Assembly (NCBI RefSeq): GCF_002234675.1
Contig: NC_019875.2
Location: 29,912,897 to 29,976,896 of the forward strand
Length of the DNA: 64,000 nt
DNA from: Oryzias latipes
Lineage: Eukaryota > Chordata > Actinopteri > Beloniformes > Adrianichthyidae
Direction: 5' to 3'
The notes beneath the pieces were generated by a model. The model did not search any database and was not told where the DNA came from. It worked only from the letters and a program-made list of their open reading frames with translations. Position numbers and translations under genes: made by a program. Positions 9,401 to 50,370 of the stretch are shown piece by piece. The stretch's first letter is position 1. Each line of letters starts with the position of its first letter.

Positions 9401-12400
9401 CCTGCAAACGGTCTGAGAAGAACCAGCCTGCAAACGGTCTGAGAAGAACCAGCCTGCAAACGGTCTGAAAGGAACCAGCCTGCAAACGGTCTGAGAAGAA
9501 CCAGCCTGCAAACGGTCTGAGAAGAACTAGCCTGCAAACGGTCTGAGAAGAACTAGCCTGCAAACGGTCTGAGAAGAACCAGCCTGTAAACGGTCTGAGA
9601 AGAACCAGCCTGCAAACGGTCTGAGAGGAACCAGCCGGCAAACAGTCTGAGAAAAACCAGCTTGCAAACGGTCTGAAAGGAACCAGCCTGTAAAAGGTCT
9701 GAGTGGAACCACCCTGTAAATGGTCTGAGAAGAACCAGCCTGTAAACGGTCTGAAAGGAACCAGCCATTAAAAGGTCTGAGAGGAACCAGCCTGTAAACG
9801 GTCTGAGAGGAACCAGCCTGCAAACGGTCTGAGAGGAACCAGCCTGCAAACGGTCTGAGAGGAACCAGCCTGAAAACGGTCTGAGAGGAACCATCCTGCA
9901 AATGGTCTGAGAGGAAACAGCCTGCAAATGGTCTGAGAGGAACCAGCCTGCAAACGGTCTGAGAGGAACCAGCCAGTAAACGGTCTGAAAGGAACCAGCC
10001 TGCAAACGGTCTGAGAAAAACCAGCCTGCAAATGGTCTGAGAGGAACCAGCCTGCAAACGGTCTGAAAGGAACCAGCCTGTAAACGGTCTGAGAGGAACC
10101 AGCCTGCAAATGGTCTGAGAGAAACCAGCCGACAAATGGTCTGAGAGGAACCATCCTGCAAATGGTCTGAGAAGAACCAGCCTGCAAACGGTCTGAGAAG
10201 AACAAGCCTGCAAATGGTCTGAGAGGAACCAGCCTGTAAACGGTCTGAGAAGAACCAGCCTGCAAACGGTCTGAAAAAAACCAGCCTGCAAACGGTCTGA
10301 GAAGAACCAGCCTGCAAACGGTCTGAGAAGAACCAGCCTGCAAACGGTCTGAGAAGAACCAGCCTGCAAACGGTCTGAGAAGAACTAGCCTGCAAACGGT
10401 CTGAGAAGAACTAGCCTGCAAACGGTCTGAGAAGAACTAGCCTGCCAGCGATCTGAAAGGAACCAGCCTGCAAACGGTCTGAAAGGAACCAGCCTGGAAA
10501 CGGTCTGAGAAGAACCAGCCTGCAAACGGTCTGAGAAGAACCAGCCTGCAAACGGTCTGAGAAGAACCAGCCTGCAAACGGTCTGAGAGGAACCAGCCTG
10601 CAAACGGTCTGAGAAGAACCAGCCTGCAAACGGTCTGAGAAGAACTAGCCTGCAAACGGTCTGAGAAGAACTAGCCTGCAAACGGTCTGAGAAGAACCAG
10701 CCTGTAAAAGGTCTGAGAGGAACCACCCTGCAAATGGTCTGAGAAGAACCAGCCTGTAAACGATCTGAAAGGAACCAGCCATTAAAAGGTCTGAGAGGAA
10801 CCAGCCTGTAAACGGTCTGAGAGGAACCAGCTTGCAAACGGTCTGAGAGGAACCAGCCTGCAAACGGTCTGAGAAGAACCAGCCTGCAAACGGTCTGAGA
10901 AGAACCAGCCTGCAAACGGTCTGAGAGGAACCAGCCTGTAAACGGTCTGAAAGGAATCAGCCTGCAAACGGTCTGAGAAAAACCAGCCTGCAAATGGTCT
11001 GAGAGGAACCAGCCTGCAAACGGTCTGAGAAAAACCAGCCTGCAAATGGTCTGAGAGGAACCAGCCTGCAAATGGTCTGAGAGAAACCAGCCGACAAACG
11101 GTCTGAGAGGAACCAGCCGGCAAACAGTTTGAGAAGAACCAGCCTGCAAACGGTCTGAAAGGAACCAGCCTGCAAACGGTCTGAGAAGAACCAGCCTGCA
11201 AACGGTCTGAGAGGAACCAGCCTGAAAACGGTCTGAGAGGAACCAGCCTTCAAACGGTCTGAGAGGAAACAGCCTGCAAATGGTCTGAGAGGAACCAGCC
11301 TGCAAACGGTCTGAGAAGAACCAGCCTGTAAACGGTCTGAGAGGAACCAGCCTGCAAACGGTCTTAGAGGAACCAGCCTTCTAAAGGGAAGTGTTAATCC
11401 TCACATAGTCTGTTTTCTTGTCAGAGACTTGCTGCATCTCGGTTCTGCAGCACAAACTCAAACTGGTCGGTTTGTTCTTTTCTTCTTTACACAATAAAGT
11501 GAGTAGATGTGAAAGTCAAGTGTGTTAATAGATACAGAAAAGGCCGAATCTTAAAGTAGTTCCTCGTCTCCTTCTTACCCATAATTCAACCTGACAGACT
11601 TTTCCTTGTTTTTCTCGTGGTCATTCAGGATCTCACCTGCGTTGTCGAGTCGCTCCACGCCCTTCCATCCCGCCATGGGAGACCCGGCGCCCTCCTTCTG
11701 CAGGGCGGGTGGAGTGTCCTGGATCAGGTCCTCGTTCGACAGAGAGAAAGCTGGGAGCGATCTCTGAAAACACGTCGGACACGTTGAAACTCCACGACGG
11801 CAACGTGTTTCTTATTCATGAGCTGCTTTTTTAGCTCCTGTGGCCAAACTGGAAGCTACAACAAAAGTCAGACAGATTTCTGTGAAACCGAAGGAGTTTT
11901 TACCCAGAGGTCTGGTTGGTGCTTTAGGGAGCTGGAGGCCTGATCGGACGGTTGATGCTGAAGGTCCATGTTGGAGCCAAAAGGCCACTGCTGGTCACAC
12001 TGAGCCTTTATCTGTGCCAACGTTTTCCTTCTGCTAATGATCTAAAACACGTAGATCAGGATCAGCAGCTTAATTCAGAACAAAGCAGCAAACAGTTTGT
12101 TTATCTCCTCAGCTTAGTGTGTGAATCCCACAGAGACTCTCAGAAAACATTTGACCTTTTCCACAATCGTCTCGGCGAGCTCCTGGACGAGCTCCGCTCT
12201 GTGCTCATGAAGATACAGAACCTCACTCTGCTTCTCCTGGAAAACACAAAAACTTTCTCTTTTAAACTTTCAGCTGATGTCTCACTTCCATTGTTTGTTC
12301 ATTTTTGCTCCGATCCACAAGCTTCTCAACCATAGCAAAAAAAAAAGCGTCCTCGCTGTGATTTCAGAATAAAAGCATCTGTGTGGATTTAATGTTTTGA

Positions 12401-18400: not shown

Positions 18401-19388
18401 GACTGAATTGTGAGAAAACCTATCAACCCTTCCACAAACATCTCCAACAAAGTTTAAATGCGAACCTCCTCAGCTTCACCTTCGTCTACATCACAGATAA
18501 AGACACGGACGGGGCACCGGCCTTACCGGCTCTTCTGGCACGCAGAGCAAAGCCAGATTCTGTCCCGCTTGTTGTAGACCCGGCAGGCCTTGCAGACGTT
18601 GTAGCTGCAGCTGCTGCACTGGCGCTTGGGGTTGAGCAGGAAGGAGAAGGGCGAGCAGCAGCGGATGCAGCAGCGGCGGTTGAAGCACGTCTGCCTTGAC
18701 AGCAGCAGGCAGCGACTGCCCTCCTCGTCCAGCTCCTGCTTCAGTTCGCTGTGGGGAGGAGGAGTCGGAGGAGGATGGGGTGGGGGAGATTTGGTGACAT
18801 GAAGAACGAGAGCTACAGATGTGGAAACAGATGCTGGTGTGTTTGCAACAACATTAAATACATTTAATAGACATTAAATACCTAGAATACACATTTGATC
18901 CCATAACTTTCAAACATGTTGAATAAAAGTGCAAATATCTGTACATTTTTTTCAAATCAGTCTTCATCTGTTAGCTCTTGTTGTCCCAGCTACCCTTACT
19001 GGGGGATATGGGCTGTATGTAGGGGGAAATGGTCATTTATGTTCATCTTTTGCTTATTGCTGTCTTTATATTTATAGACTTTTGCAGGCAGGCAGGCTGC
19101 AGGTCTGCGGCAGACGGGCTGCGTGCCTGCGGCAGACGGGCTGCGTGCCTGCGGCAGACGGGCTGCGTGTCTGCGGCAGACGGGCTGCGTGTCTGCGGCA
19201 GACATGTTCTGTTTTGTTTTTGCGCCTTCCCTCAGCTTTTCCTGGACTAAATCAGACCCTTAAATGTTCAGAGCTAACCTGAGACGCTCCTCATCCTTCT
19301 TACGAAGCTTCATGTCTCTTTGCACCACCTGCAGCACGTGAGCCGCCTCCCCCTCCGTCAGGCCCGTCAGGTCCAGCTTCCGACCCAT
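3376..19388 (-). CDS. myrip: MYRIP, myosin VIIa- and Rab27-interacting protein (14 coding exons)
   Basis: Fourteen exons join in phase to 1,099 residues plus stop. Residues 1-155 form the Slp-homology/Rab27-binding domain: [10 protein letters not shown] start, helix [20 protein letters not shown], a FYVE-type double zinc site with four CxxC pairs, then [20 protein letters not shown], all diagnostic of MYRIP/melanophilin. [11 protein letters not shown] and [12 protein letters not shown] match MYRIP rather than melanophilin. The middle region, which in mammals binds myosin VIIa/Va, includes [11 protein letters not shown]. The C-terminus has the conserved coiled-coil [17 protein letters not shown] and [10 protein letters not shown] tail, the region linked to actin binding. 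In mammals MYRIP tethers Rab27a-bound melanosomes and secretory granules to myosin and actin. The protein is longer than the human one (about 860 residues), mainly because of acidic exon 10. Confidence 0.93.
3546..3644 (-). CDS. myrip: MYRIP exon 13
   Basis: 33 codons in phase 0, acceptor ttgtgtcccag, donor gtaagt. Encodes [15 protein letters not shown], matching the ESRISALTIAGLNV motif of mammals. Confidence 0.93.
3767..3928 (-). CDS. myrip: MYRIP exon 12
   Basis: 54 codons in phase 0. Encodes [20 protein letters not shown] and [16 protein letters not shown], the most conserved coiled-coil stretch of MYRIP and melanophilin. Confidence 0.94.
4163..4339 (-). CDS. myrip: MYRIP exon 11
   Basis: 59 codons in phase 0 between acceptor gcgccacag and donor gtgagt. 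Encodes [20 protein letters not shown] and [11 protein letters not shown], matching the [14 protein letters not shown] coiled-coil start of the MYRIP C-terminal region. Confidence 0.92.
4821..6200 (-). CDS. myrip: MYRIP exon 10, giant acidic repeat exon
   Basis: 460 codons between acceptor gacattcacag and donor gtgagt, phase 0 on both sides. The product is strongly acidic and contains four imperfect repeats built around SST(D/E)(D/E)ELDR, each preceded by a Leu-Arg-rich turn ([32 protein letters not shown]). The later part is Glu/Lys-rich low-complexity sequence. A nearer acceptor (gccgcag at 6178) was rejected because its phase does not fit exon 9. This exon accounts for most of the extra length relative to mammals; the repeats may be phosphorylation or binding sites, which is inference. 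Confidence 0.87.
6347..6588 (-). CDS. myrip: MYRIP exon 9
   Basis: Acceptor cttcttccag, donor gtaaaa. Encodes [19 protein letters not shown] and [15 protein letters not shown] followed by an acidic run. DSEGNW echoes SPDGNW of exon 8, suggesting a repeated small motif. Confidence 0.85.
6718..7008 (-). CDS. myrip: MYRIP exon 8
   Basis: Acceptor gctgtcctcag, donor gtgaca. Encodes [40 protein letters not shown] and a PEPEPEPQP run. The SPDGNW and KESGV..AYEG blocks support MYRIP. Confidence 0.88.
7165..11380 (-). repeat. 26-bp-period satellite, about 162 units, in MYRIP intron 7
   Basis: Units of 26 bp run head to tail for about 4.2 kb; each contains tgcaaacggtctgag and (a/g)gaacca. Diagnostic variants sit at exact multiples of 26: the 'ccattaaa' unit at 8231, 8517, 8959, 9765 and 10779 (11, 17, 31 and 39 units apart) and the 'ccggcaaaca' unit at 7945, 8829 and 9635 (34 and 31 units). 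No indel is therefore visible over long distances, and a 31-unit (806 bp) higher-order block is duplicated. On the minus strand each unit reads with TTCTTCTCAG and GTTTGCAGG. Because 26 is not a multiple of three, each frame cycles through 26 codons, and the minus strand lacks stops in all three over long stretches. It lies inside an intron, so long open frames here are not evidence of protein. Confidence 0.95.
11637..11763 (-). CDS. myrip: MYRIP exon 7
   Basis: Acceptor gtgttttcag, donor gtgaga. Encodes [20 protein letters not shown] and [11 protein letters not shown]. The next intron, 11636-7009, contains the 26-bp satellite. Confidence 0.8.
12156..12236 (-). CDS. myrip: MYRIP exon 6
   Basis: 27 codons, phase 0 on both sides, acceptor tctcctttccag-type and donor gtcaaa. 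Encodes [20 protein letters not shown], matching the YLRDHKEELTEELATTI helix of mammalian MYRIP. Confidence 0.82.
12445..12542 (-). CDS. myrip: MYRIP exon 5
   Basis: Acceptor tttgtgttcag was chosen over an in-exon cag because only it gives the right phase and the conserved HSM motif. Encodes [19 protein letters not shown] and ISKAEA, an amphipathic helix conserved in MYRIP. Confidence 0.88.
13179..13383 (+). mobile_element. piggyBac-type MITE, copy 1
   Basis: Ends CCCTTGTGCTATC and GATAGCACAAGGG form terminal inverted repeats; the interior (cattagtgggtctagatgac-type block, tccacctttatccacctttg) is shared with copies at 23762, 26282, 39354 and 57849. The TTAA target site is degraded here. Assignment to piggyBac rests on the CCC start and the TTAA seen at copy 5. 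Confidence 0.8.
13584..13664 (-). CDS. myrip: MYRIP exon 4
   Basis: Acceptor tgtctgcag and donor gtttca. Encodes [15 protein letters not shown], close to the GSDSTFYRQSEG motif of mammalian MYRIP. The Cys-rich start (SACGDSVC) is not something I recall from mammals. Confidence 0.88.
13665..16640 (-). other. myrip: MYRIP intron 3
   Basis: Contains a SINE at 13905-14135. The rest (14140-16640) shows no coding exon and only vaguely repetitive text, including the 'ttagggttagggtggg' tract near 15590, which is too short to be telomeric. Confidence 0.5.
13905..14135 (+). repeat. tRNA-derived SINE
   Basis: Head with A-box-like tggtgcagtggtta and B-box-like GGTTTGAGTCC about 45 bases later, followed by the 'gtgtggatgtgtggcttttc' core related to the gtgtggagtttgcatgttct core of other copies, and a 'ggggtaggctccaatgaccc' block. 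These are the expected parts of a Pol III-type SINE. Confidence 0.7.
16641..16777 (-). CDS. myrip: MYRIP exon 3, second Rab27-binding helix
   Basis: Acceptor cttctcag, donor gtacga. Encodes [18 protein letters not shown] and [15 protein letters not shown]. The SLEWFY block is the hallmark Rab27-contact motif of the Slp/Slac2 family. Confidence 0.93.
16815..17000 (+). repeat. second type of tRNA-like SINE fragment
   Basis: ggatcgctcagccggctcag resembles a tRNA 5' half with an A box, and tgttcgattcccag fits a B box at the usual spacing. It lies in MYRIP intron 2. Could be a decayed tRNA pseudogene rather than a SINE. Confidence 0.45.
17530..17650 (+). repeat. SINE fragment
   Basis: tctgtgtggagtttggatgt and ttctcctcgttcctgtggtt match the shared core of the copies at 258 and 20618, in plus orientation. 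The tRNA-like head is largely lost. Confidence 0.55.
18527..18748 (-). CDS. myrip: MYRIP exon 2, FYVE-type zinc finger
   Basis: Acceptor ctccccacag, donor gtaagg. It encodes [11 protein letters not shown] and four CxxC pairs (CIRC, CSSC, CKAC, CSAC) expected to hold two zinc ions and keep the two Rab27-binding helices apart. Confidence 0.93.
19084..19205. repeat. 22-bp tandem repeat, about 5 copies, in MYRIP intron 1
   Basis: Units of ctgcggcagacgggctgcgt plus 2 bases repeat about five times with small t/c variants at the unit joint. GC-rich and 75 bases downstream of the exon 1 donor on the sense (minus) strand. Confidence 0.85.
19279..19388 (-). CDS. myrip: MYRIP exon 1 (start codon)
   Basis: ATG at 19388-19386 begins [11 protein letters not shown], the canonical N-terminus of MYRIP, and runs into the first Rab27-binding helix. 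Donor gttagc. The upstream bases include a possible acceptor (gatcttag) near 19420, so a non-coding 5' exon is likely. Confidence 0.92.
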
Positions 19389-34190: not shown

Positions 34191-34349
34191 TAATGCAAAA
34201 ACACAGAGCCATATGACAGCCCCTTACATTTTACTCCAAAAAGCTTGATCCTGTTGCCCAATCTCTACCACCATGTGTACAGGCAAACTGATTAGGCCGT
34301 TGTCCAGTTACCTAAAACAATCATTGAAGCAGCTCAGCTCCCTCCTAGC

Positions 34350-35861
34350 ATGTCAGCACAAGCAGCTGAAAGTATAGCGTTAACCAGAGCATGTGAATTA
34401 GCCAAAGGAAAAGACCTTACAGTACACAGACAGCCAGTACACTTTCTCAACATTTTTTATTTATTTATTTATTTATTTATTGCCAAACAATGGAAACGCG
34501 GAGAAATGAAAACTTCCACAGGCAAACGCATCACCCACGCACAACTTTTACTTAACCTATTACAAGCCATAAAGGCCCCATCAAGGTTAGCAGTTTGTAA
34601 ATGTGCTGCACACACTGCAAACACAGACACAATCTCAATAGGGAACAGGCTTGCTGATAAAATTGCAAAACAAGCTGCAGCAGGACACCACAACACAGAA
34701 ACATACTCTGCAGAAACAGAAAACACACAACTCATAGACACTAGCATCTTGCATGACATGCAAAGCTCAGCTCCACTGCAGGAAAATAAATTGTGGTTAT
34801 CAAAAGGAGCAGAAATAACTGAAAAACAAATTTATGAACTGCATGGTGAACCTGTACTCCTGAAATCATTGTTCAAAGCAGCAGCAGTTGCGACACATGG
34901 GCCATGCCATGTGTCGACAGGAGGAATGACAGTGCTCATACAAAATTATTTTACAGCATTTGGCCTACAATCGTACTTAAAAAGGGTTTGTACAACATGC
35001 CCTACCTGTATACGGAAAACCCACAGGGTAACATGCGACCAAAGCGGGGAGCTTTTCCTAAGCCATCCTACCCTTTCCAGGTATTACACATGGATTTCAT
35101 TGAACTAACTGCAAGTGGCCCCTATAAGTACTGCCTTGTGCTAATAGACGCATTCTCAAAGTGGGTAGAAATAATCCCTACCAAAAAAAAAAGCAGACGC
35201 GATATCAGTAGCAAAAGGTATCTGTAAAACCATCATTCCCAGTTATGGAATACCAGAAATTATATATAGTGATAATGGAGCCCATTTTGTTAACACCATC
35301 ATCCAAAATATGGCCGCCAGCCAAAAAATGACATTGAAAAATCACTGTGCATACCACCCACAAAGTGCAGGACTTGTGGAACGCACAACTGGAAGAGTAA
35401 AAAGCAGACTCAAAAAATGCATGGAAACAACAGGAAGACCATGGCCAGAGTGTTTAGATCTAGTAAAACTATACATGAGAATCACACCTACATCAGATGG
35501 CCTGACACCCTTTGAAATAGTCTATGGTAGGCCCTATAGGTTACCTATAGTAGCCACAGACTTACAAAAAGCAAATGAAGAACAAACAGTAGCAGATTTG
35601 ATCATAATAATGATAAACCAGAAGGAGGTGTCCAATGCAAATTTACTGCCATCTGACTCTTTATCTCCACAGGAAAGCTCACCAGTGAAACCAGGCGAAT
35701 GGGTGTTCATCAAGGTCCAAAAGAGGAAGAACTGGACCAGCCCATGGTGGGAGGGACCATACCAAGTCCTCCTAACAACACCCACGGCAATGACAATAGC
35801 TGAACGCCCCAGCTGGATACATCTCAGTCACTGTAAGTTGCAGCGTGCACCAGAGGCCTAA
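34350..35861 (+). pseudogene. retroviral RNase H end and integrase, frame-broken
   Basis: Starts with the RNase H C-terminal half (SAQAAESIALTRACELAKGK, later GNRLADKIAKQAA), into which a (TTTA)n tract at about 34460-34482 has been inserted in place of conserved residues. Then the integrase zinc module (H-x3-H and CxxC), the core with three acidic positions ([22 protein letters not shown]) and the C-terminal SH3-like part ([12 protein letters not shown]). The frame changes near 35030 and again around a run of ten A at 35183-35192. It is an inactive fragment of gamma/epsilon-like pol. Confidence 0.85.
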
Positions 35862-35909
35862 AGGAGGCTGTTGTGGTGAAGTCTGACTACAAAGGGGTTC
35901 CGTCTTTTA

Positions 35910-37047
35910 GTGGCGGTTCGTCTCAATCGTCAGCGAAGAAACCAGCCGAACCCAACATCCATTAGAACTTGGATCTTTGAAGTGACTCTGCAACCTAGCA
36001 GCATGGAAGGCCCACTGCTGGGAGACCGCAGCAGGTGGGCGCGGAGCTGCGCTGTGACTGTAGCATGTCTTCTAGTCGCACTGACTTTCCTAGCAATGGA
36101 GAGACCAGGAGAAGGCGGTATCAACCTCGTCCACCGCTCATGGGATCTGTATGAAAAGACAACTCACCTCAATATTGCCACCCACCATCATTCCTACAGT
36201 ACCAATCACTGGTGGCAACTGATGAACAGAACTGCACACGACAGCAACATCACTAGCTGTTGTGTATGCACCTTCATGCTGTATGCCTCACCCAATACAG
36301 GCCTCCACCCAGACAACAACCAGGAGACAAGATTGCCTGCATGAACTCAGCACACATCCTGGCTACTACCGATCTAACGGAGACGCATCTTCATGAATAA
36401 CTGTCCCTAACCTTCACCCCACACGACGGAAACTGGCTGCACCAGAGTTCCACATGAACGCCCTACAAATGACTACCACTACTTGAGTCCCATGGGAGTT
36501 CCGCATCTGGGGTGGAGGAGCAAAATTCGGACAATCACTCCTTCCATGGATCGGAGTGGCAGAAGTAAGAGTCCACATCGAGATCAACAGGTATGCATTG
36601 CTGAGACTCCTTAACACCACCTACAAGTTTTCCAATGTATCAGCAGCAGAGATGTCGGCCATAAGATCTATGGTTCTGCAAAATCGACTCGTGCTCGACC
36701 TTCTAACTGCATCATCAGGAGGTGTGTGCAAAATGGTTGGAGACACCTGCTGCACTTTCATCCCTGACAGCACCAGTGATGGACAGGAAATTTCTATCGC
36801 ACTGCATGACTTAACGGAGCTGCATGCCTACGTTAAGTCTGCGACTCCTGGTGCCAGTCCCACCAGTGAAATCTGGTCCTGGCTTACATCAGGCCCATGG
36901 TGGCACCTCCTGCTGAAATTATTGACCCCTATACTCATCGTTTTGTGCATGTCTTTTTACAACCTGCGCTCTGCCTTGTGTCATGTTCATGATCGCAAAG
37001 GCCACCATGCAGACTTTCATTCGTTACCAGCTTGTCCAACAAGCTGA
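35910..37047 (+). pseudogene. retroviral env, shortened and broken
   Basis: The first frame (35910-36344) has a hydrophobic segment usable as a signal/anchor. The last frame (36556-37047) has a retroviral transmembrane-subunit CX6CC motif (CKMVGDTCC) and a membrane anchor (LLKLLTPILIVLCMSFY). Between them all frames are stopped, and the surface-subunit part is much shorter than usual. Confidence 0.75.
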
Positions 37048-40676: not shown

Positions 40677-41203
40677 GTAAAGTAAACACAAGACCACTTT
40701 ATCATGGAATTACTTTTTATTTAACGAAAAGTTTTATTCTCATTCAATGTAAGTAACAAAAATTTTTGTTTTTCTAGACTTGAAGTAGGGTTGCATGATA
40801 TGAGTAAAACTCATGATTTGCGAAATTAGTGATCAATATTGCGATGACGATATAACTTGAAATTATTTTTATTTTATTTAACCTTCATTTACCCAGGAAA
40901 TGTCCCATTGAGATTAAGAATCTCAATAAAAAAAGGAAAGAAAAAAAAAAGAATCATAATAAATAAACAAATAGCAAAACATCCAAACACATTTCCATTT
41001 CACTGCAACAGTTTAATTTCAATTAAGAGTTAAAATACCTTAAACTATACTTCAAATGACCCTCGTCTACAGAGGAGGCCAACATCTAACATAAAAGCTC
41101 AATCTGATTGGTCAAAAGCAAAAAGGGATTTATTTGATTCGCTTTGATAAGATTGTTTTAGCACACTAAAGGATTACCATTTATCACGATTTCAGCAGAC
41201 TTT

Positions 41204-42094
41204 GTAGTAGGTTTAGGGGATGTCATCTGGACTTGGTTTTAAAGTAAGAAGACGTTTCAACTCTTATCCAAGAGGCTTTGTCAATTCTGAATTAGCTGGT
41301 CGAAGATCTGGTATAGAGCCGAAATGGAACAGTATTTCAATTCCGTATATCTCAGGCCTGTCTGAAAAACTTAAAAGGATTTTCAGACAACATAACATCC
41401 CAGTTCATCTCAAACCAGTTAATACTCTCAGACAAAAACTGGTTCATCCAAAGGACAAAATTCCCAGCTACAAACAGAGTAATGTTGTGTACTCTATCCA
41501 CTGCAAAGAGAACTGCAACAAACAGTATATAGGAGAAACCAAACAACCTCTACACAAGCGGCTTTACCAACATCGCAGAGCCAACCCAAGTGGACCTGAG
41601 TCTGCAGAAACCTCCACCTGAAGGCCACGAACCACTCGTTCGAGGACAGTGAAGTCCAAATTCTAGCCAGAGAGAAAGGATGATTTTAACGACGAGTGAA
41701 AGAAGGCATCTTTGTCAAGAAGGATAAACCTTCTCTTAATAAGAATGGTGGTCTCAGGTTTATTCTTCCATCCATCTACGGCAGTGTTTTGAAACCTAAA
41801 CAAACCAAACCAGTTCCACCTGGGTCGTTAACAGCTGAAAGAGAGGACCAGTTTGGGGAGGGAGTCACTGGCTCCCCAACCCCCAGCTGAGGACAAAGGA
41901 CTCTTAACGACCCGAAACCATGCAGGCTAAGTGGACAAAACCATCCAGTTTCAGGTCCGACTCCTCCCCCATGAGCGCATATATACCAGCTCTTTGACCA
42001 GCTAATTCAGAATTGACAAAGCCTCTTGGATAAGAGTTGAAACGTCTTCTAACTTTAAAACCAAGTCCAGATGACATCCCCTAAACCTACTACA
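41204..42094 (+). mobile_element. Penelope-like element with inverted terminal arms
   Basis: About 95-bp arms at 41204-41301 and 42000-42094 are near-perfect inverted copies (both begin gtagtaggtttaggggatgt). Between them is the C-terminal part of a Penelope reverse transcriptase with its GIY-YIG endonuclease. Severely 5'-truncated. Confidence 0.82.
41220..41880 (+). pseudogene. Penelope RT C-terminus and GIY-YIG endonuclease
   Basis: ISGLSEKLKRIFRQHNIPV and DKIPSYKQSNVVYSIHC lead into the GIY-YIG motif (VYSIHC..YIGET) and LHKRLYQHR. After a frame change near 41610 it continues with HSFEDSEVQILARE and VKEGIFVKKDKPSLNKNGGL, the end of the endonuclease domain. The frame break makes it non-functional. 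Confidence 0.82.
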
Positions 42095-42238
42095 ATGGAA
42101 CCAACCTGGATGAATGACAGTCTTCATAGACATGTTCAGCAGACTTTTGCAATATAAATATTGCACAGTTAGAAATCACGATAACGATAATTTTGCGATG
42201 TATTGTGCAGATCTGACTTGAAGATAAAATACAATCTT

Positions 42239-42246
42239 ACCTTTTA
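42239..42246 (-). other. stop codon abutting a splice donor
   Basis: TAA 42246-42244 is followed three bases later by AG|GTAAGA. A 3'-UTR intron starting this close to the stop would not trigger nonsense-mediated decay. Confidence 0.55.
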
Positions 42247-45200
42247 CTGTAGAGAACTGAACAACTGGCTCCTCTGAGGATCATTCTTGTTCTTGTATCC
42301 CTCATCTTTGATCCAAGCAGTGATGGTGTTAAGCTGTTCTTGGGTCATGGCATCTTTACCTTGAAGCAGGCCAAACCACTTCTCCACCATATCTCTGCTG
42401 TTTTCTTGAACTCTCTTTTCAAAGCTAGAAAGCCTGGTTTTACTCTTCTTCAGGTTCTGAGAACTCTTGAAGTTGCTGCCACCGCTGACATGACCATAGT
42501 CCACTGCTGCACCAATGACCATCAGTTTGAAGGTGCTCTCAACATCATCCCTGCTGATGGCAGTGGTGAGTAATGTTGTGAATTTTTCAGATGTTCCTGC
42601 TGGAAAGTTCTGATTTTTTCCTTGAAGTGCACCAGCGTTCTGAAGTTGTAGGCCATGATGTTTCTCCACATCAGCATTTACATCCACACTGTCAAAGGTT
42701 GAGGGTTTTGGTCCTACCTCAAGCATGGCCTTGGCCAGTCTGCTGTTCTGGTTAACTTGACTAGCTTCCAGGATACTATTGGGTGGAGGTTGGTGATCTG
42801 TGTTAAAGATTTGTGTCATTTTTGGATTTTGAGGGTAGTGTTTTTGCCATTTTATGTAGTAATTTATTTCTCCAACTTGTGTATTAAGACTTGTCTGGAT
42901 TTTATTCATGATCTGTTTTGGTCTACTTCCCTCTGGGATGTACCAGTCACTACCTCTGAGTCTTTCAACCCACTGCTTGTGCTTGATGAAAGATCCCCAC
43001 TGACTGGGACGTTGAAGTAAAGTCTTGGCCTCCGCAGATCGTAAGTAATCAGCTTCTTGTGAGATCTCTACTTCATTGGCTGTTGGTTTTCTGGCTCTTG
43101 CCAAAGCCAAAAACAGGCTGCTCTTTCCATTGCTGTTGGTGATCACTATCTTGTTATCAATGTAAGTGTCAAAATGACCATCAGGATGTTTGTCACTCTT
43201 TGGTCTGTAGATCAGTGTTACTGTCTGATCAGAGGTTTTGCTGCGTGGGTTTACTTCCTGCATTTTAGTAAGACTTCCATGTTTATTCTCAGTTAGGATG
43301 ACAACTTTAGTTCCTGTAGCCTCTGACAGAACTCTCACATCAAGGATGGTCCCCCCACTGCCAGGGCTTTTGATCTTCTCTGCATAAGACCTTGAGAGAT
43401 GAGAATCTGGATTAACAGTCATGTCTGCAGTTGAACTGCGTGCAGCTTTAAGCTTGTCTTCTGCTCTCTTGAAGCCTTTTTTAATGTATTCTCCAAGGGC
43501 CCCATTCACCTTATCTTGTACTTTAGAAACAATGTGACTGGAGAACTTCTGGTTAAAAACCTCCACCATAGCATCAGCCAGTAATTCAGAAATAGCATTG
43601 GCTATATCTTGCTTGAGTGATTTCAAAATCTCTGAGTCTGAAGCTGAAAGCTCATTTTCTTTCACTTTTTCTGTAATATTTGTATTTTGTTTGAATGATT
43701 CTAGCTCCTTTTGAAGATTTGAGAAGAATTTTGTGGAGATAGTTGATACTGCCGCAACAGCATCAGCTGCTAGTATCGAAAGATGTGCAACTTGAATGAC
43801 TTGAAAAAATACTTTGACTTTTCCTTTGGCCTCTTCTTTAGCTCTGTCTATCACTTTGATAATGGATGAGTTGAGCTTGTTCTGCCAACTAAGGTCTGCA
43901 TAGAATGGCTGCAGTGCAGTTTTGCTTAACTTCTTGAAAACTTCAAGGAGATTAGCTTTTCTCTTTTCATCATTGAGGAGCTCTTTAAGTTGTTCCTTAT
44001 CTACCAGGTGTAGGACAATGGTAGAATCTACTAAAGAACTCAGTGGGTCTTTCTCTAAGTTGGATTCAACCCCATTTGTGATTGTCTTGGTCAGATCATT
44101 TTTTATACTTTTTAATATCTGTTTCATTATTTCTTCCTCTGCCTTTCCAAGCCCTTGGAAAAATATTTCTTTCCCTATTTTTTTACTGGCCTCTTTTACT
44201 GCATTTTTTAGGTTTGTCTTTGTGACAGCACTCATACTGTCTTTAGCATGTTTGGAGATTAGCTTTGGAAGTGCCTTCAGTTTTTTGCCTAAGTGTTTCA
44301 ATGCCATTTTGCAAGCTTTTAAGCCTTTAGAAACCAACTTTCCAACTCCGAATGTAATGAGTGACACACCGACGGAAATGGCTTTCTGTATAGCCCAGTC
44401 TTTCCAGCTGAACTCTCCTGTCACTAGGGCCTCGATGCCATAGATGCAGTCTGACACTCCTTCAGAAATGAGTCCAAAGCCAACTTGAGCTAGTGCTCCA
44501 CAAGTGAAGACAGCAAGCAGAACTCCAGCAACAATCTGTAAGACTCCAAGAAAAAACACCAAAATAGCTTCCCAAATGGAGGGCTCTTGTTCAACAGCAA
44601 ATGCATACTGCAGACCACCTTTGTAGAGGCTGTAAGCTTCAACTTGGAGTTCTTCATCAGCACTTGAAATCAATGAGAAAACTGGAGATTTCTTGGCCAC
44701 AGCATTTTTATCCTTCTCTATGATCTCATCTAACTTCGTAATGGCCTCAGATATGTTTTTACCCCAAGTTTCATACATGTTGCATCTAGTTGTCAATTGT
44801 TTTTCCAGACTTGTTTGTTCATTCTTGGTTGATTCAACAGAACCCATCTTCACAAACTGCAAACAGATCATAGACTCCTCACTAAGGCACTGTAAGGACT
44901 CCTCTGCTTTCTTCAGATCTTCTCTGGCATTTTTTAGATAGTTATTCTTCCTCTGCATAATAGTACAGTAAGCATGATTGTAAGAAGCAATTGCTGCCCA
45001 GCTTTTATCCTGGTCCATGGCTTTCTGAAAGAGACTGGCTCCAAGGTCCCATTTCTTATCATCAAGTGCAACATTTCCAAACTTTATAAAGTGATAAATG
45101 CTTGAACATGGGGATTCCTGCTTTTGAGACTGATCTCTTGCCTCTGCCAAATCAGCCTTCAGACTTTGTTTCAGTTCCTCCCTTTTCAACTGGTCAATGT

Positions 45201-48200
45201 CTTCTGATTTAATTTGCAGCCAAATGCCCCAGAACTCATTCATGATATCTACCATAACTCGTTTTTCATCTTCATCTGAAATCTTGTGAACTTCTTGAAG
45301 AGTTTTGCAGTAGTCTGAGAAAAGTTCCTCCCTTAATTTCATTTCATGGACATCATCCATCATGCAACGTATTCTTTCTTCTGCAAGTGTGTCTCTTGTA
45401 ATCTTAACTTCTTCTAGAGAGGTCCCTGTCTTGAAACCTCGCTGAAGGTGTTCAGTGGACATGATGATCTGGGCAGATCCAGGTTTGCCTTTGCGAGCCG
45501 TTCGACCAAAGGCCTGAAGTTCCACTCTTGTGTTGTCTGAAAGGAACGAGAGGATCACAAATAACCCCCCGTTATTGTTCACGTCTTTGGAAACCTTTAT
45601 GTCTGTTCCTCGTCCGGCAAGGTTGGTGGCAACTATAACATCTCCAGGAAGAAGTGTTTTTTCTATTTTGCTCAAGCTGTCATTGTCGCTTCGGCAGTAG
45701 AGAATGATATCACCTGAGACACAGCTTTTTAGATCGTCATAGATCTCTTTGGCTTTGTTGATTGTTTCACAGATTATCAGAGCCGCTCTTCCATCCCTGT
45801 AGGAATTTTTGGAGACCTGAGCCATCACCACATGCTTTATTTCCGATTTCCACTCTTCAGATGAGGTTGTCACTTTTCCTTTGACTTCAAATAACTTCTT
45901 TCTGTTGAATGCTGGCATTTTGCAGGCAGTCAGGTTTGGGTAAAGGTTCTTCAGAAACAGAATGTCTTTTTCACTGCCAAGAGTTCCTGTCGTTCCATAG
46001 ATTTTCCCCTGGTACTTTTCAAAGAATGCAACGTTGGAAATGTAGTTTGTCACAGTTGAAATTGTGCTGAGTTTGATTTGGTGTTTGATCTCAACAAACT
46101 GCTGGAGACCATCTCCCCATTTCTTATTTAGTTCCACGATCCCTGTGGATCTGAAATCCACTGGACAAACATGATTGTTTTCTACAACGTAATCTCGTCC
46201 CTCTCTTAGTTGCAAAGCCAGAAATGCATTCTGAGTCCACACGGACATTTTTTCACCAATCAAGTTCTTCAAGAATCCAGGAATGCGGATTTCATCTTTG
46301 TTGTTTGTGCATGGGGTGTACTGAATTTTCTCGGAGATCGTATCAGCTATTGGCTGAACTAGAATTTCATCAGAGTCGTAAAGAGAACAACAAAACCCTT
46401 CCTCCATGGCCAGAAATGTTAGTTCTGGAATTGAGTTTTTATCATAAGGGCTGAGTTTCTCAAGAGAAAGCAATCCTTTCTCATTCAAAGTATAGACAGT
46501 AAAGCCATAGGGAACATAGTTTTCCAGTTCTTTAAAGAAGTTAACTGCTGTTTCTTTACTCACAGTTTTCAGTTTGTCACGAAGTTCATCTGGTTTACTA
46601 TTGTAGATTTCTTCAGCAAACCCCATGGGTACAGTGTTGGTTTCTTCAGCAATACGTAAAATATCAATTGGGTCTGTTATTTCAGTTTCTTTTGTGTCGA
46701 TTGAGTCATAAATGGCCTTGAAAAATGAAGCTGGAGGGCCTCGCACAAATGACTGATATGGTGAAGAGACATAGCCATACTGACGGACATGAGCCCAGAT
46801 CATGGCAAGAACAGTGTTGAGGTGCTGCATGCAAACCATGGGACTGGACAAGTAGGTCAGCTGCACCCCTTGGTCAAGCAGCAGAGAGTCCACTTCATCA
46901 ATGATGATGCACTGATATTTACGATCAGGCCTCACATCCTTCATCTCAAATATCTGACGAAGATGATCTGCAGCAAAGGTTTCGATAGTTCCATAGATCA
47001 CATCTTTCTGGTAGCATTCTTTTCTTTCACTGTCCTCAGTCTTGTTTGTGTTTGTGTCAACTGTAATGCCAAAGTGCTCAAAGAATTTACCCCATTCTTC
47101 TGCGTCTCTTTGACACAACACTGACGAGCTGGAGACTACATCCACTTTTTCTCCCCTCAACACACGAAGCACTGCAAACATTGCAATGACACAAGACTTT
47201 CCCTCCCCAGTGCCCATTTCCAGGAGCTTCCCAGTGTCAGACAAGGCCAAGAGGCACCAGCTAATCATCTGAGTGGCTCTGGGCCACCACTTTTCATCAG
47301 CTACTTGCTGATGAACAGCATTGCATAAGAATGCAAGGATCTCTTGAAGGTTCTCTTTGTCCATATTCTGACTCAGAGTTTTTGCCTGCGTTATATCTTT
47401 GTACTTTTTAATTTCACCACTTTGTATCAAGTTTGTGACATGAGTTACAATACTGTAAGACTTGGTCAGTGTTTGCTCATCAATATCTTTCATCTGACGC
47501 AGTTCCTCAAAAAGCATGTCAATGGTTTTGCCTTTTTCATCTTTCAGGCTCTTGTCCAAGTGCTGGATAAGGTTCTCAGTTTTATAAGAACCTAAAAGGT
47601 CAAGAAGAGTTTGATTGCTGTCATCTGTCCATGTGGAAGAAACCTGGTATGTTTCCAACAGGTGTAAAATCTTCATGATGGAAGTGCAGCCCTCAGTGGA
47701 ATGGTGCTGAGTTAATGCTCCAAGCAGGTTTAATAATTCAACTGGTGACCAAGCATGTCTGCTGAAATTTAAAACCATTTCCAAAATCTGTTTGGTTTCT
47801 TCATTTAAATCTTGGGATTGCCCTGCACAGCTAAGCAGAGCCTCCAAACACCATCTGCCAGCTTGTGCTGCCGTTTCTTTCTCAGCTTCTGCTTCGCTAC
47901 AAACGACTCGAACCAGATTCTCCAGAATTGTCAGGATAAAGATCTCGTTAAACTGCAGCGTCTGTCCTGAAATCTTTTTCAAGATGTCGATGATGATTGG
48001 ACTTTTGGTGTTCAAACCTTTGTTCATGTTATTGTTAAGGTTTTGAAACAAAGCTTTCACAAACCATCTTTTTGGTTCCATTTCAAGACTTTTACATCTT
48101 TGCATGATGTTTTGCAGAGTTTGAGCAGCAAACTCCAGTGGACTGTTGCCTTTTAGCTTTAAAAATTCAAGATTCTCCAAAGAATCAAGACTTTGTTCTT

Positions 48201-50370
48201 CAATAAAAAATCCACGAGGAAGTGGAGGAACCCGGTTTTCCATAACCTCTTTTGCATGCTGAATGTAGTCGGACACAAAGTCACTCAATGTGCCGTACAC
48301 AATGTCAGCTTCGTAAACATCCTTAAATGAAGTTCCTGTTGTCTTGTTTGTGTTAAAGGAGATTCCAAGGGAGTTATAAAAGCCAGACCACTCTTTCATC
48401 TGCTGATCTGATTCAATATCAGAGTTCAGAACAATGTCCAGTTTGTTTCCTTTGCAGACTTGTATAGCTGCATACATAGCTAACACGCATGGGTCTTCTT
48501 CAGTACCAACCAGTTGTGGTACTTGGGTGTTCTCCTTCAGCAGCATGGCACACCATTGTAACATGTGCTTCACTGAAGGCCACCAGCCTTTTGAGTCAAA
48601 AACTGCTTTGCACAGCAGAGATAGACAGCTCTGTAGGTCATCTGTGCTCAAAGATCCACTTTTTATTGAATCTCTCATGCATGTTGACTGTTTTTGTGGC
48701 TGTTCAGAGTAGACTAAGACACCAATTGTAATGTTTTTTATCATTTCAATCAAGGAATCATCTAGATTTTGAGACGATTTTAACTCTGCAAGGGCTTTAA
48801 GGAGATTTTTTTCATCACTTTTTCTGAGAATTTTGGGGAAATCTTCAGAGATGTTTGCAGCAAAGTCAATAGCTTCAGTGAAGGTCCGTCCATAGTCATC
48901 TCTCCAGTCTGGGGATACATCATACACTTTGACCAGTATCAGTAATTTAGTTATTGAAGCTTCCTCTGCACATTTCTGTGACAGTCCTTTAAGCAGATTT
49001 AGTGCTTCCATTGGAGTCCACTGGTTTTCTTGCACAAGTCTTAAGATCATTTCAGTGGACTCTGAGTGTGTTTCCTTGGTGTGTAGATCAGTGAGCGTGG
49101 ACAACAGCAGCTTCAGGCATTTGATTTCCATCTTTAAAATGAACACAGACTCTCTTTCAACAGCATTCTGCATTGATGATAAGAGGATGCTCAGGAATTC
49201 TGCAGGGAAAAGAAGATCAGTCGAGAGCTCATCTTCCGCCCATTGTTTGGCTATGAGGACTGCATCTGTGTCCGAGCTGTTGCTGTCACTGTAGAAGTGC
49301 ATCATGGTTAGATACAGAGCTTGGGTCAACAGGAAACTGTCAGCTGCACTGCCTGCTGATTTGCTGATAGATCCTATGAGGAACTGCATGTGGTCACAAA
49401 GCCTTTGTGAGGACTCTTCCTCTAGTTTTTCCACAGACAGCACACATAGTTCTGTGATGTAGACTTGGGTGTGCTTCAGTGTGGTGAGGGATGGAAGAGC
49501 ATGAACCCATTCCTCAAAGAGGAGTTTGTCCAAAGCTGACACAACTTTTCCCAGCTGATCAGAGGAAAGTTCATCCAGACTGAGATCTGCAACCTCAAAT
49601 CCACATTTCAGTGAGAGAATCTCTAAAAGGTCATCACTGTCACCGTCTGACTCAAATTCATCCAAATGTCCTTTCAGAACTTTTCTTTTGGATTCCTGTT
49701 CTGATAAGTTGGTTCTCAGATGTTGTTCATACTGTTCCTTAGCTTGGTGCTGTGATTCTTCCAGTCTTTGATTTAGCTCTTCTTCTCTTCTCTGCCGCTC
49801 TTCCTCTCTTTTTCTCTCCTCTTCTCTTCTCTGTCGCTCTTCCTCTCTTTTTCTCTCCTCTTCTCTTCTCCGCTGCTCTTCCTCTCTTCTTCTCTCCTCT
49901 TCTCTTCTCTGTCGCTCTTCCTCTCTTTTTTTCTCCTCTTCTCTTCTCTGCCGCTCTTCCTCTCTTTTTCTCTCCTCTTCTCTTCTCTGCCGCTCTTCCT
50001 CTCTCTTTCTCTCTTCTTCTCTTCTCTGTCGCTCTTCCTCTCTTTTTTTCTCCTCTTCTCTTCTCTGCCGCTCTTCCTCTCTTTTTCTCTCCTCTTCTCT
50101 TCTCCGCTGCTCTTCCTCTCTTCTTCTCTCCTCTTCTCTCCTTAGGTTTTCTTGGTCATTGATTTCCTTGTTAAAGCAGTAGTTGCACTTGTACATATTA
50201 TCATAGCCAACTGGTCTGTAGTATTCTCCTCCATTGAAAATATAGACGTACTGTCCACGAACCGTATCTTTGCCTAAATGATCAAAGGATGTGCATGGAG
50301 GGAGAACTTTGTTACAAATGCGGCATCTCAGGCTGTCTCCCATGTGACATTCTGATGGTACATTTCCCAT
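42244..50370 (-). CDS. giant SecA-like translocase ATPase protein (2,708 aa), single coding exon
   Basis: ATG 50370-50368 (aaaATGG context) was chosen over an upstream in-frame ATG because a splice acceptor (tttttttcag) lies at 50414, making the earlier ATG intronic. Order: MGNVPS (N-myristoylation pattern); C16xxC19/C62xxC65 zinc-like module; R/E coiled coil about 74-215; helical region; degenerate SecA module 1 (WWPSV 596, GTEED 622, YGT); helical region; SecA module 2 with Walker A GTGEGKS 1053-1059, YGT, Walker B DEVD 1158-1161, TGT about 1457, AGRGTDI about 1585-1591 and GRTARKG 1622-1628; TPR-like stretch about 1757-1830; hydrophobic region about 1930-1975; OTU-like fragment ending at H2399 (GHFDTY); C-terminal region with DHQPPP at 2525. 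SecA is the motor of bacterial and plastid protein export; animals have no classical SecA. Function in fish is unknown to me. Confidence 0.9.
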   Translation of the reverse strand: MGNVPSECHMGDSLRCRICNKVLPPCTSFDHLGKDTVRGQYVYIFNGGEYYRPVGYDNMYKCNYCFNKEINDQENLRREEERRREEEQRRREEERKREEERQRREEEKKREEERQRREEERKREEERQRREEERKREEERQRREEEKKREEERQRREEERRREEEQRRREEERKREEERQRREEERKREEERQRREEELNQRLEESQHQAKEQYEQHLRTNLSEQESKRKVLKGHLDEFESDGDSDDLLEILSLKCGFEVADLSLDELSSDQLGKVVSALDKLLFEEWVHALPSLTTLKHTQVYITELCVLSVEKLEEESSQRLCDHMQFLIGSISKSAGSAADSFLLTQALYLTMMHFYSDSNSSDTDAVLIAKQWAEDELSTDLLFPAEFLSILLSSMQNAVERESVFILKMEIKCLKLLLSTLTDLHTKETHSESTEMILRLVQENQWTPMEALNLLKGLSQKCAEEASITKLLILVKVYDVSPDWRDDYGRTFTEAIDFAANISEDFPKILRKSDEKNLLKALAELKSSQNLDDSLIEMIKNITIGVLVYSEQPQKQSTCMRDSIKSGSLSTDDLQSCLSLLCKAVFDSKGWWPSVKHMLQWCAMLLKENTQVPQLVGTEEDPCVLAMYAAIQVCKGNKLDIVLNSDIESDQQMKEWSGFYNSLGISFNTNKTTGTSFKDVYEADIVYGTLSDFVSDYIQHAKEVMENRVPPLPRGFFIEEQSLDSLENLEFLKLKGNSPLEFAAQTLQNIMQRCKSLEMEPKRWFVKALFQNLNNNMNKGLNTKSPIIIDILKKISGQTLQFNEIFILTILENLVRVVCSEAEAEKETAAQAGRWCLEALLSCAGQSQDLNEETKQILEMVLNFSRHAWSPVELLNLLGALTQHHSTEGCTSIMKILHLLETYQVSSTWTDDSNQTLLDLLGSYKTENLIQHLDKSLKDEKGKTIDMLFEELRQMKDIDEQTLTKSYSIVTHVTNLIQSGEIKKYKDITQAKTLSQNMDKENLQEILAFLCNAVHQQVADEKWWPRATQMISWCLLALSDTGKLLEMGTGEGKSCVIAMFAVLRVLRGEKVDVVSSSSVLCQRDAEEWGKFFEHFGITVDTNTNKTEDSERKECYQKDVIYGTIETFAADHLRQIFEMKDVRPDRKYQCIIIDEVDSLLLDQGVQLTYLSSPMVCMQHLNTVLAMIWAHVRQYGYVSSPYQSFVRGPPASFFKAIYDSIDTKETEITDPIDILRIAEETNTVPMGFAEEIYNSKPDELRDKLKTVSKETAVNFFKELENYVPYGFTVYTLNEKGLLSLEKLSPYDKNSIPELTFLAMEEGFCCSLYDSDEILVQPIADTISEKIQYTPCTNNKDEIRIPGFLKNLIGEKMSVWTQNAFLALQLREGRDYVVENNHVCPVDFRSTGIVELNKKWGDGLQQFVEIKHQIKLSTISTVTNYISNVAFFEKYQGKIYGTTGTLGSEKDILFLKNLYPNLTACKMPAFNRKKLFEVKGKVTTSSEEWKSEIKHVVMAQVSKNSYRDGRAALIICETINKAKEIYDDLKSCVSGDIILYCRSDNDSLSKIEKTLLPGDVIVATNLAGRGTDIKVSKDVNNNGGLFVILSFLSDNTRVELQAFGRTARKGKPGSAQIIMSTEHLQRGFKTGTSLEEVKITRDTLAEERIRCMMDDVHEMKLREELFSDYCKTLQEVHKISDEDEKRVMVDIMNEFWGIWLQIKSEDIDQLKREELKQSLKADLAEARDQSQKQESPCSSIYHFIKFGNVALDDKKWDLGASLFQKAMDQDKSWAAIASYNHAYCTIMQRKNNYLKNAREDLKKAEESLQCLSEESMICLQFVKMGSVESTKNEQTSLEKQLTTRCNMYETWGKNISEAITKLDEIIEKDKNAVAKKSPVFSLISSADEELQVEAYSLYKGGLQYAFAVEQEPSIWEAILVFFLGVLQIVAGVLLAVFTCGALAQVGFGLISEGVSDCIYGIEALVTGEFSWKDWAIQKAISVGVSLITFGVGKLVSKGLKACKMALKHLGKKLKALPKLISKHAKDSMSAVTKTNLKNAVKEASKKIGKEIFFQGLGKAEEEIMKQILKSIKNDLTKTITNGVESNLEKDPLSSLVDSTIVLHLVDKEQLKELLNDEKRKANLLEVFKKLSKTALQPFYADLSWQNKLNSSIIKVIDRAKEEAKGKVKVFFQVIQVAHLSILAADAVAAVSTISTKFFSNLQKELESFKQNTNITEKVKENELSASDSEILKSLKQDIANAISELLADAMVEVFNQKFSSHIVSKVQDKVNGALGEYIKKGFKRAEDKLKAARSSTADMTVNPDSHLSRSYAEKIKSPGSGGTILDVRVLSEATGTKVVILTENKHGSLTKMQEVNPRSKTSDQTVTLIYRPKSDKHPDGHFDTYIDNKIVITNSNGKSSLFLALARARKPTANEVEISQEADYLRSAEAKTLLQRPSQWGSFIKHKQWVERLRGSDWYIPEGSRPKQIMNKIQTSLNTQVGEINYYIKWQKHYPQNPKMTQIFNTDHQPPPNSILEASQVNQNSRLAKAMLEVGPKPSTFDSVDVNADVEKHHGLQLQNAGALQGKNQNFPAGTSEKFTTLLTTAISRDDVESTFKLMVIGAAVDYGHVSGGSNFKSSQNLKKSKTRLSSFEKRVQENSRDMVEKWFGLLQGKDAMTQEQLNTITAWIKDEGYKNKNDPQRSQLFSSLQ
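45430..47300 (-). other. SecA-like module 2 (motor motifs intact)
   Basis: Within the giant gene. GTGEGKS, YGTIETF, IIIDEVDSLL, IYGTTGT, VATNLAGRGTDI, GGLFVI and FGRTARKGKPGSAQI occur in the order and approximate spacing of bacterial SecA (NBD1, substrate cross-linking region, NBD2). The tail of SecA (zinc-binding SecB site) is absent. Confidence 0.88.
48060..48640 (-). other. SecA-like module 1 (degenerate)
   Basis: Within the giant gene. WWPSVKHMLQWCAMLL, GTEEDPCVLAMYAAIQVCKG and ADIVYGTLSDFVSDYI align with WWPRATQMISWCLLAL, GTGEGKSCVIAMFAVLRVLR and KDVIYGTIETFAADHL of module 2 at a constant offset of 431 residues. The P-loop Gly-Lys-Ser is replaced by Glu-Asp-Pro and no DEVD box follows, so it should not hydrolyse ATP. 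Confidence 0.8.
49770..50150 (-). repeat. coding 39-bp tandem repeat (13-residue R/E coiled-coil units)
   Basis: Nine to ten in-frame units of RREEERKREEERQ and close variants. DNA units differ by few bases, indicating recent expansion; copy number is likely to be polymorphic. Predicts a long charged single helix or coiled coil. Confidence 0.92.

Follow-up and report, generated by a model that had tools for sequence, protein, structure and literature searches.

Within a 64,000-nucleotide stretch of the genome of the medaka Oryzias latipes (C17:29,912,897-29,976,896; hereafter the window), a single coding exon on the minus strand (42244..50370) encodes a protein of 2,708 residues built around a SecA-type motor. 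To judge from its sequence, this is a divergent SecA-type protein and not a classical SecA. The reading that we tentatively favor, based on sequence and structure models, is that of a membrane-seated, ATP-driven motor that would thread polypeptides, unfolding them, and would likely be guided by a predicted OTU-like, ubiquitin-directed domain. Animals are generally held to lack SecA and motors of its kind. If this reading is true, the fish family, intact and present in several copies, would make up a new class of vertebrate protein-threading machine that joins a SecA-type motor to a permuted OTU domain and begins with a membrane-type N-terminus.

The open frame extends over 2,736 codons from stop to stop, and its translation from the methionine of an MGN start gives 2,708 codons plus a stop without interruption, in agreement with the intact frame of about 8.1 kb of the original prediction. 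The SecA-type core, which comprises the motor domains, the clamp region and the helical scaffold, occupies residues 955-1750 (45121..47508, minus strand). It contains the complete motor motifs, from GTGEGKS at residue 1053 to GRTARKG at residue 1622 with about 570 residues between them, in the order and spacing that had been predicted. The profile search proposed earlier gave a significant match of the window protein to Pfam SecA_DEAD (7.6e-41; 140.7 bits, cut-off 24.6), accompanied by DEAD (2.3e-12) and P-loop_SecA (7.9e-8; 32.6 bits, cut-off 27), with the Helicase_C and SecA preprotein-binding profiles below their cut-offs. Solved SecA chains are also matched (e.g., Bacillus subtilis SecA, 1.1e-39), as are eight NCBIfam SecA or SecA2 models (best 6.4e-56). 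None of these eight reaches its cut-off (e.g., 151 versus 800 bits), and for this reason the protein is not classed as a classical SecA. The C-terminal zinc tail motif has no match in the window protein; some true SecA proteins also lack this tail. In the predicted fold, the SecA-wide architecture is present, including the clamp region and the helical scaffold. Because the SecA-type ATPase site is complete and the predicted fold is SecA-wide, ATP-driven polypeptide threading appears to be the most likely activity.

Upstream of this core, residues 581-758 (48097..48630, minus strand) form a degenerate duplicate of nucleotide-binding domain 1, which carries GTEEDPC at the position of GTGEGKS in the true domain. 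Both copies share 28% identity (E 1e-33), and SecA_DEAD scores the duplicate at 25.6 bits (cut-off 24.6), or at 26.7 bits in the genome search. The original prediction was right about the SecA-type motor and overlooked this second motor domain. It also overlooked several features described below, namely the paralogs and, within the protein, the N-terminal MGN/CxxC module, the TPR-like region, the hydrophobic helices and the permuted OTU domain.

Two regions of the protein point to a membrane. The first is the N-terminus (residues 1-75; 50146..50370, minus strand), where an MGNVPSE start with Gly2 fits the N-myristoylation pattern, as it does in 36 of the 53 proteins carrying this start module, and is followed by CxxC pairs; the sequence predicts myristoylation of the start and a zinc site at the CxxC pairs. 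The second consists of conserved hydrophobic helices (residues 1929-2006; 44353..44586, minus strand), for which hydropathy and the structure model predict a membrane hairpin. The hydropathy window falls within this hydrophobic module in all 96 members tested, and the hydrophobic part may resemble the Latrotoxin C-terminal domain. On the strength of these two regions, tethering to a membrane is likely. Between the start and the degenerate motor domain lies a charged helical region of variable length, encoded by a 39-bp tandem repeat (49777..50139, minus strand; tandem-repeat search), and a TPR-like helical region follows the core (residues 1750-1889; 44704..45123, minus strand), as suggested by the predicted fold and by most of the VIA-align matches listed.

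Further towards the C-terminus, the predicted fold and the order of motifs indicate a circularly permuted OTU-like domain (residues 2326-2480; 42931..43395, minus strand). It keeps H2399 and D2401, and the His-aromatic-acid motif precedes the Cys position, which is the motif order of a permuted OTU. Pfam OTU matches seven of twelve family members, and a PDB profile search with swapped halves matches OTU. Each of these lines is weak alone; the predicted OTU fold and the His-before-Cys order occur together. At the Cys position, both the window copy (S2418) and its C17 paralog have Ser in place of the catalytic Cys, and therefore the domain would bind rather than cut ubiquitin in the window copy, probably acting as a protease in relatives that bear the Cys.

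Assembled into a mechanism, these parts would work as follows. The protein would be anchored on a membrane via its myristoylated start and hydrophobic hairpin, its SecA-type core would spend ATP on threading and unfolding polypeptides, and the OTU-like domain would steer the motor to ubiquitin-marked proteins, ubiquitin being the most likely guide because of the presence of this domain. With a threading motor and a ubiquitin handler in one chain, the protein could extract or dismantle proteins that carry ubiquitin at a membrane, and this membrane may be that of an intracellular microbe. The closest working analog is p97 with its OTU partner, which likewise couples these two functions, and it is by this analogy that we infer the combined extraction role. 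A role in defense is plausible. A bolder and rather unlikely extension is that animals, fish foremost, hold an undescribed lineage of SecA motors that have become membrane-anchored, ubiquitin-guided threading machines directed against intracellular microbes, in which a p97-like segregase and its OTU partner would be united in one polypeptide and the dead second motor domain would serve as regulator.

Several observations weigh against the favored reading. The SecA preprotein-binding profile scores 21 bits, below its cut-off of 23.5. In the genome, matches to the SecY family are confined to two C5 loci, which probably represent Sec61-alpha genes, so that a bacterial-type channel partner is not evident. 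Some modules are missing from the medaka copy on C14 and from a fish class of about 1,190 residues. For the OTU domain, the PDB profile search reached an E-value no better than 0.01, and some of the 13 chains that it found are unrelated; one OTU appears among the 50 VIA-align matches listed. Foldseek with the C-terminal half gave 150 matches within a limit of E 10, of which the best stood at 0.11 and none reached 0.001. The 50 of these that were listed include no OTU, and Pfam found no OTU in single pieces of the window protein. Finally, the OTU Cys is present in 59 of 88 full-length modules and absent in 29 (the window protein being counted twice). Such often-dead OTU domains, like the dead second nucleotide-binding domain 1 and the TPR-like region, would fit a regulatory scaffold, and it is possible, if doubtful, that the protein is an ATP-dependent sensor or scaffold, likely immune, in which the SecA core has become a nucleotide switch and threading has been lost. 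In line with this, two fish gene models join SecA_DEAD to several other domains, among them putative NLR-type/NACHT-type domains in P0094 (Prochilodus) and a GIMAP-like domain in P0233 (Megalops). These fusions could reflect faulty annotation or point to immune-gene neighborhoods in other fish. However, the parts needed for threading, the clamp region and the scaffold, are retained in the predicted fold. A search for GIMAP linkage found 55 AIG1 matches in the medaka genome, with no match located on C17. On C14, two of them are found at a distance of about 0.5 Mb from the SecA-type copy of that contig.

The protein ends in a domain known only from this family, with an invariant DHQP motif (residues 2481-2708; 42247..42930, minus strand). 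A comparison with the PDB gave three chains at E 0.29 or worse and no related fold, and in Pfam no family was matched by more than one of nine members (best lone match 0.0063, DUF4455). A protein search with the sturgeon DHQP domain returned 14 proteins, 13 of them from the earlier family list and one new, from Lates calcarifer. Among 119 large proteins, 95 carry the OTU module, 67 the DHQP module and 63 both. The order of motor, hydrophobic helices, peptidase-like domain and uncharacterized C-terminal domains is one that would suit an effector or toxin-like protein recruited from bacteria, which would use its motor and its hydrophobic helices to carry its C-terminal domains through a membrane. 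Domains of these types are described elsewhere: the effectors of Amoebophilus include SecA-like and OTU domains (PMC3482391), giant actinobacterial toxins carry SecA-like ATPases (PMC8195603), and the SecA genes of Wolbachia phage WO are closer to those of invertebrates than to those of bacteria (PMC5062602). However, the family-specific regions have no bacterial relative in the genomes scanned save one doubtful contig. In scans of 84,980 prokaryote genomes and of viral contigs, each made with two short patterns that divergent relatives would escape, 12 and 12 pattern stretches in prokaryotes led to 0 loci and 1 locus (the doubtful contig), and 22 and 59 stretches in viral contigs led to none confirmed. 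A bacterial effector origin is possible, and the effector or toxin-like reading as a whole is unlikely. One family relative with the hydrophobic module lies on a 3,959-base contig (L001) of a Myxococcales metagenome-assembled genome (MAG) at a coverage of 3.9, and is perhaps eukaryotic DNA binned with a bacterium.

The gene belongs to the fish genome. Since SecA is a bacterial family, contamination of the assembly comes to mind, and we reject it with near certainty, barring an error common to many assemblies. The window lies on a contig of 31.8 Mb in an assembly of 734 Mb and 25 contigs, the G+C content of the gene resembles that of the surrounding DNA, and an inverted paralog lies close by. 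Moreover, a protein of Oryzias melastigma shares 87% identity with the 1,171 residues used as query, relatives occur in dozens of fish, and a long branch separates the family from bacterial SecA. The original prediction had taken the same view, describing an old SecA-type frame in a fish nuclear genome that these many relatives show to be kept in fish, and its mention of SecA-labeled fish predictions agrees with the "protein translocase subunit SecA-like" labels of the databases. As for the spliced leader that it proposed, with a putative exon near 52.0 kb, the acceptor directly upstream of the ATG exon is present in both the window gene and the C17 paralog. The gene may be transcribed.

SecA_DEAD finds three genes in the 734-Mb genome: the window gene, a second gene on C17 and a frame on C14. 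The second C17 gene (C17:29,981,997-29,989,847, plus strand) is inverted and intact, with 2,617 residues from Met, and is 91 residues shorter in the charged helix, where it has fewer repeat units. The protein products of the C17 pair share 98.5% identity across 2,546 residues, and their coding DNA differs by 23 synonymous and 40 nonsynonymous changes. The resulting ratio of nonsynonymous to synonymous rates (Ka/Ks) of 0.46 suggests constraint, and gene conversion between the copies may also have occurred. The C14 copy (C14:23,354,000-23,363,999, minus strand) has an open frame of 1,737 codons, which an acceptor-like TAG precedes. Downstream of its matched part, at a distance of about 1.4 kb, lies an OTU-like piece. 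Its sequence places it in a second, older SecA-type lineage of the medaka genome.

Protein searches gave 456 and 416 matches, of which the best 120 of each were listed. Among those listed, the named sources comprise Latimeria and ray-finned fish that range from Polypterus and sturgeon to teleosts, besides single entries from a crayfish, a hemichordate, a sand fly and a Bacteroidota MAG. A ferret label is confined to clusters shared with Oreochromis. The fish proteins form a long class and the class of about 1,190 residues; neither the OTU nor the DHQP module was found in the latter. A first tree was built from 68 cores, i.e., 62 hand-chosen sequences of the 243 in the family and six ordinary bacterial SecA, and a second one without four long rows (Lutzomyia, a Bacteroidota MAG, L001 and P0092); plastid, Wolbachia phage WO and Amoebophilus proteins lie outside both. 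About four changes per column separate the 62 family rows from the bacterial ones. The C14 copy sits on a long branch and is not part of the main fish clade. In both trees, a crayfish protein of full long architecture (P0062, Procambarus clarkii) nests among vertebrate rows, which may reflect a transfer between animals or a contaminated crayfish record. In approximately unbiased (AU) tests of groups chosen after the tree was seen, p was 0.007 against a group made up solely of the 34 rows from fish and coelacanth, and 0.028 for vertebrates, crayfish and the C14 copy as one clade. Together with the single-exon coding frame and the tandem copies, the nested crayfish protein might suggest a mobile-element or selfish gene rather than a host system. 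This is improbable: the SecA_DEAD search finds just three genes in 734 Mb, the two-pattern scans found no relative in viral contigs, and the repeats seen nearby carry genes of their own.

Behind the stop codon, a 3' intron with fish transposons had been proposed. This region is largely a recent insertion of about 1.43 kb (40785..42214, no strand assigned) with a 9-bp flanking duplication, which is absent from the paralog. It contains a GIY-YIG endonuclease piece (41217-41618, plus strand; 24 bits, cut-off 22.6), which we take to be perhaps from a Penelope-like element. Elsewhere in the window, endogenous retrovirus pieces (34296-37044, plus strand) match RNase H, the integrase C-terminus and envelope. 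The window also contains a tandem repeat whose 26-bp unit occurs in about 162 copies (7165-11379), and a FYVE_2 zinc finger exon (18526-18873, minus strand; 4.8e-22) of an ordinary-looking host gene.

Regarding known systems, database labels indicate that sequences of this family are already known to annotators: the fish "protein translocase subunit SecA-like" entries belong to it and are known as labels only. A literature search combining SecA with fish, medaka, Wolbachia, metazoa and infection found, by title, no paper on the fish protein. The SecA-like domains of Wolbachia phage WO and of Amoebophilus effectors belong to bacteria with a life inside eukaryotes; no Wolbachia-labeled record was among the 22 phage records matched. 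For Amoebophilus the likeness extends to OTU domains, which its repertoire also includes (PMC3482391). With EschOTU, the permuted OTU deubiquitinase of Escherichia albertii, the fish domain shares the His-aromatic-acid motif before the Cys position and a matching predicted fold, but it lies within a SecA-type protein and has Ser for Cys in the window copy. With bacterial SecA and SecA2, the fish protein shares the motor motifs and a predicted fold through the helical scaffold. It differs from them in being about 30% identical in the matched pieces and below all NCBIfam SecA cut-offs, in lacking the C-terminal zinc motif, and in having a dead second nucleotide-binding domain 1 and large N- and C-terminal additions.
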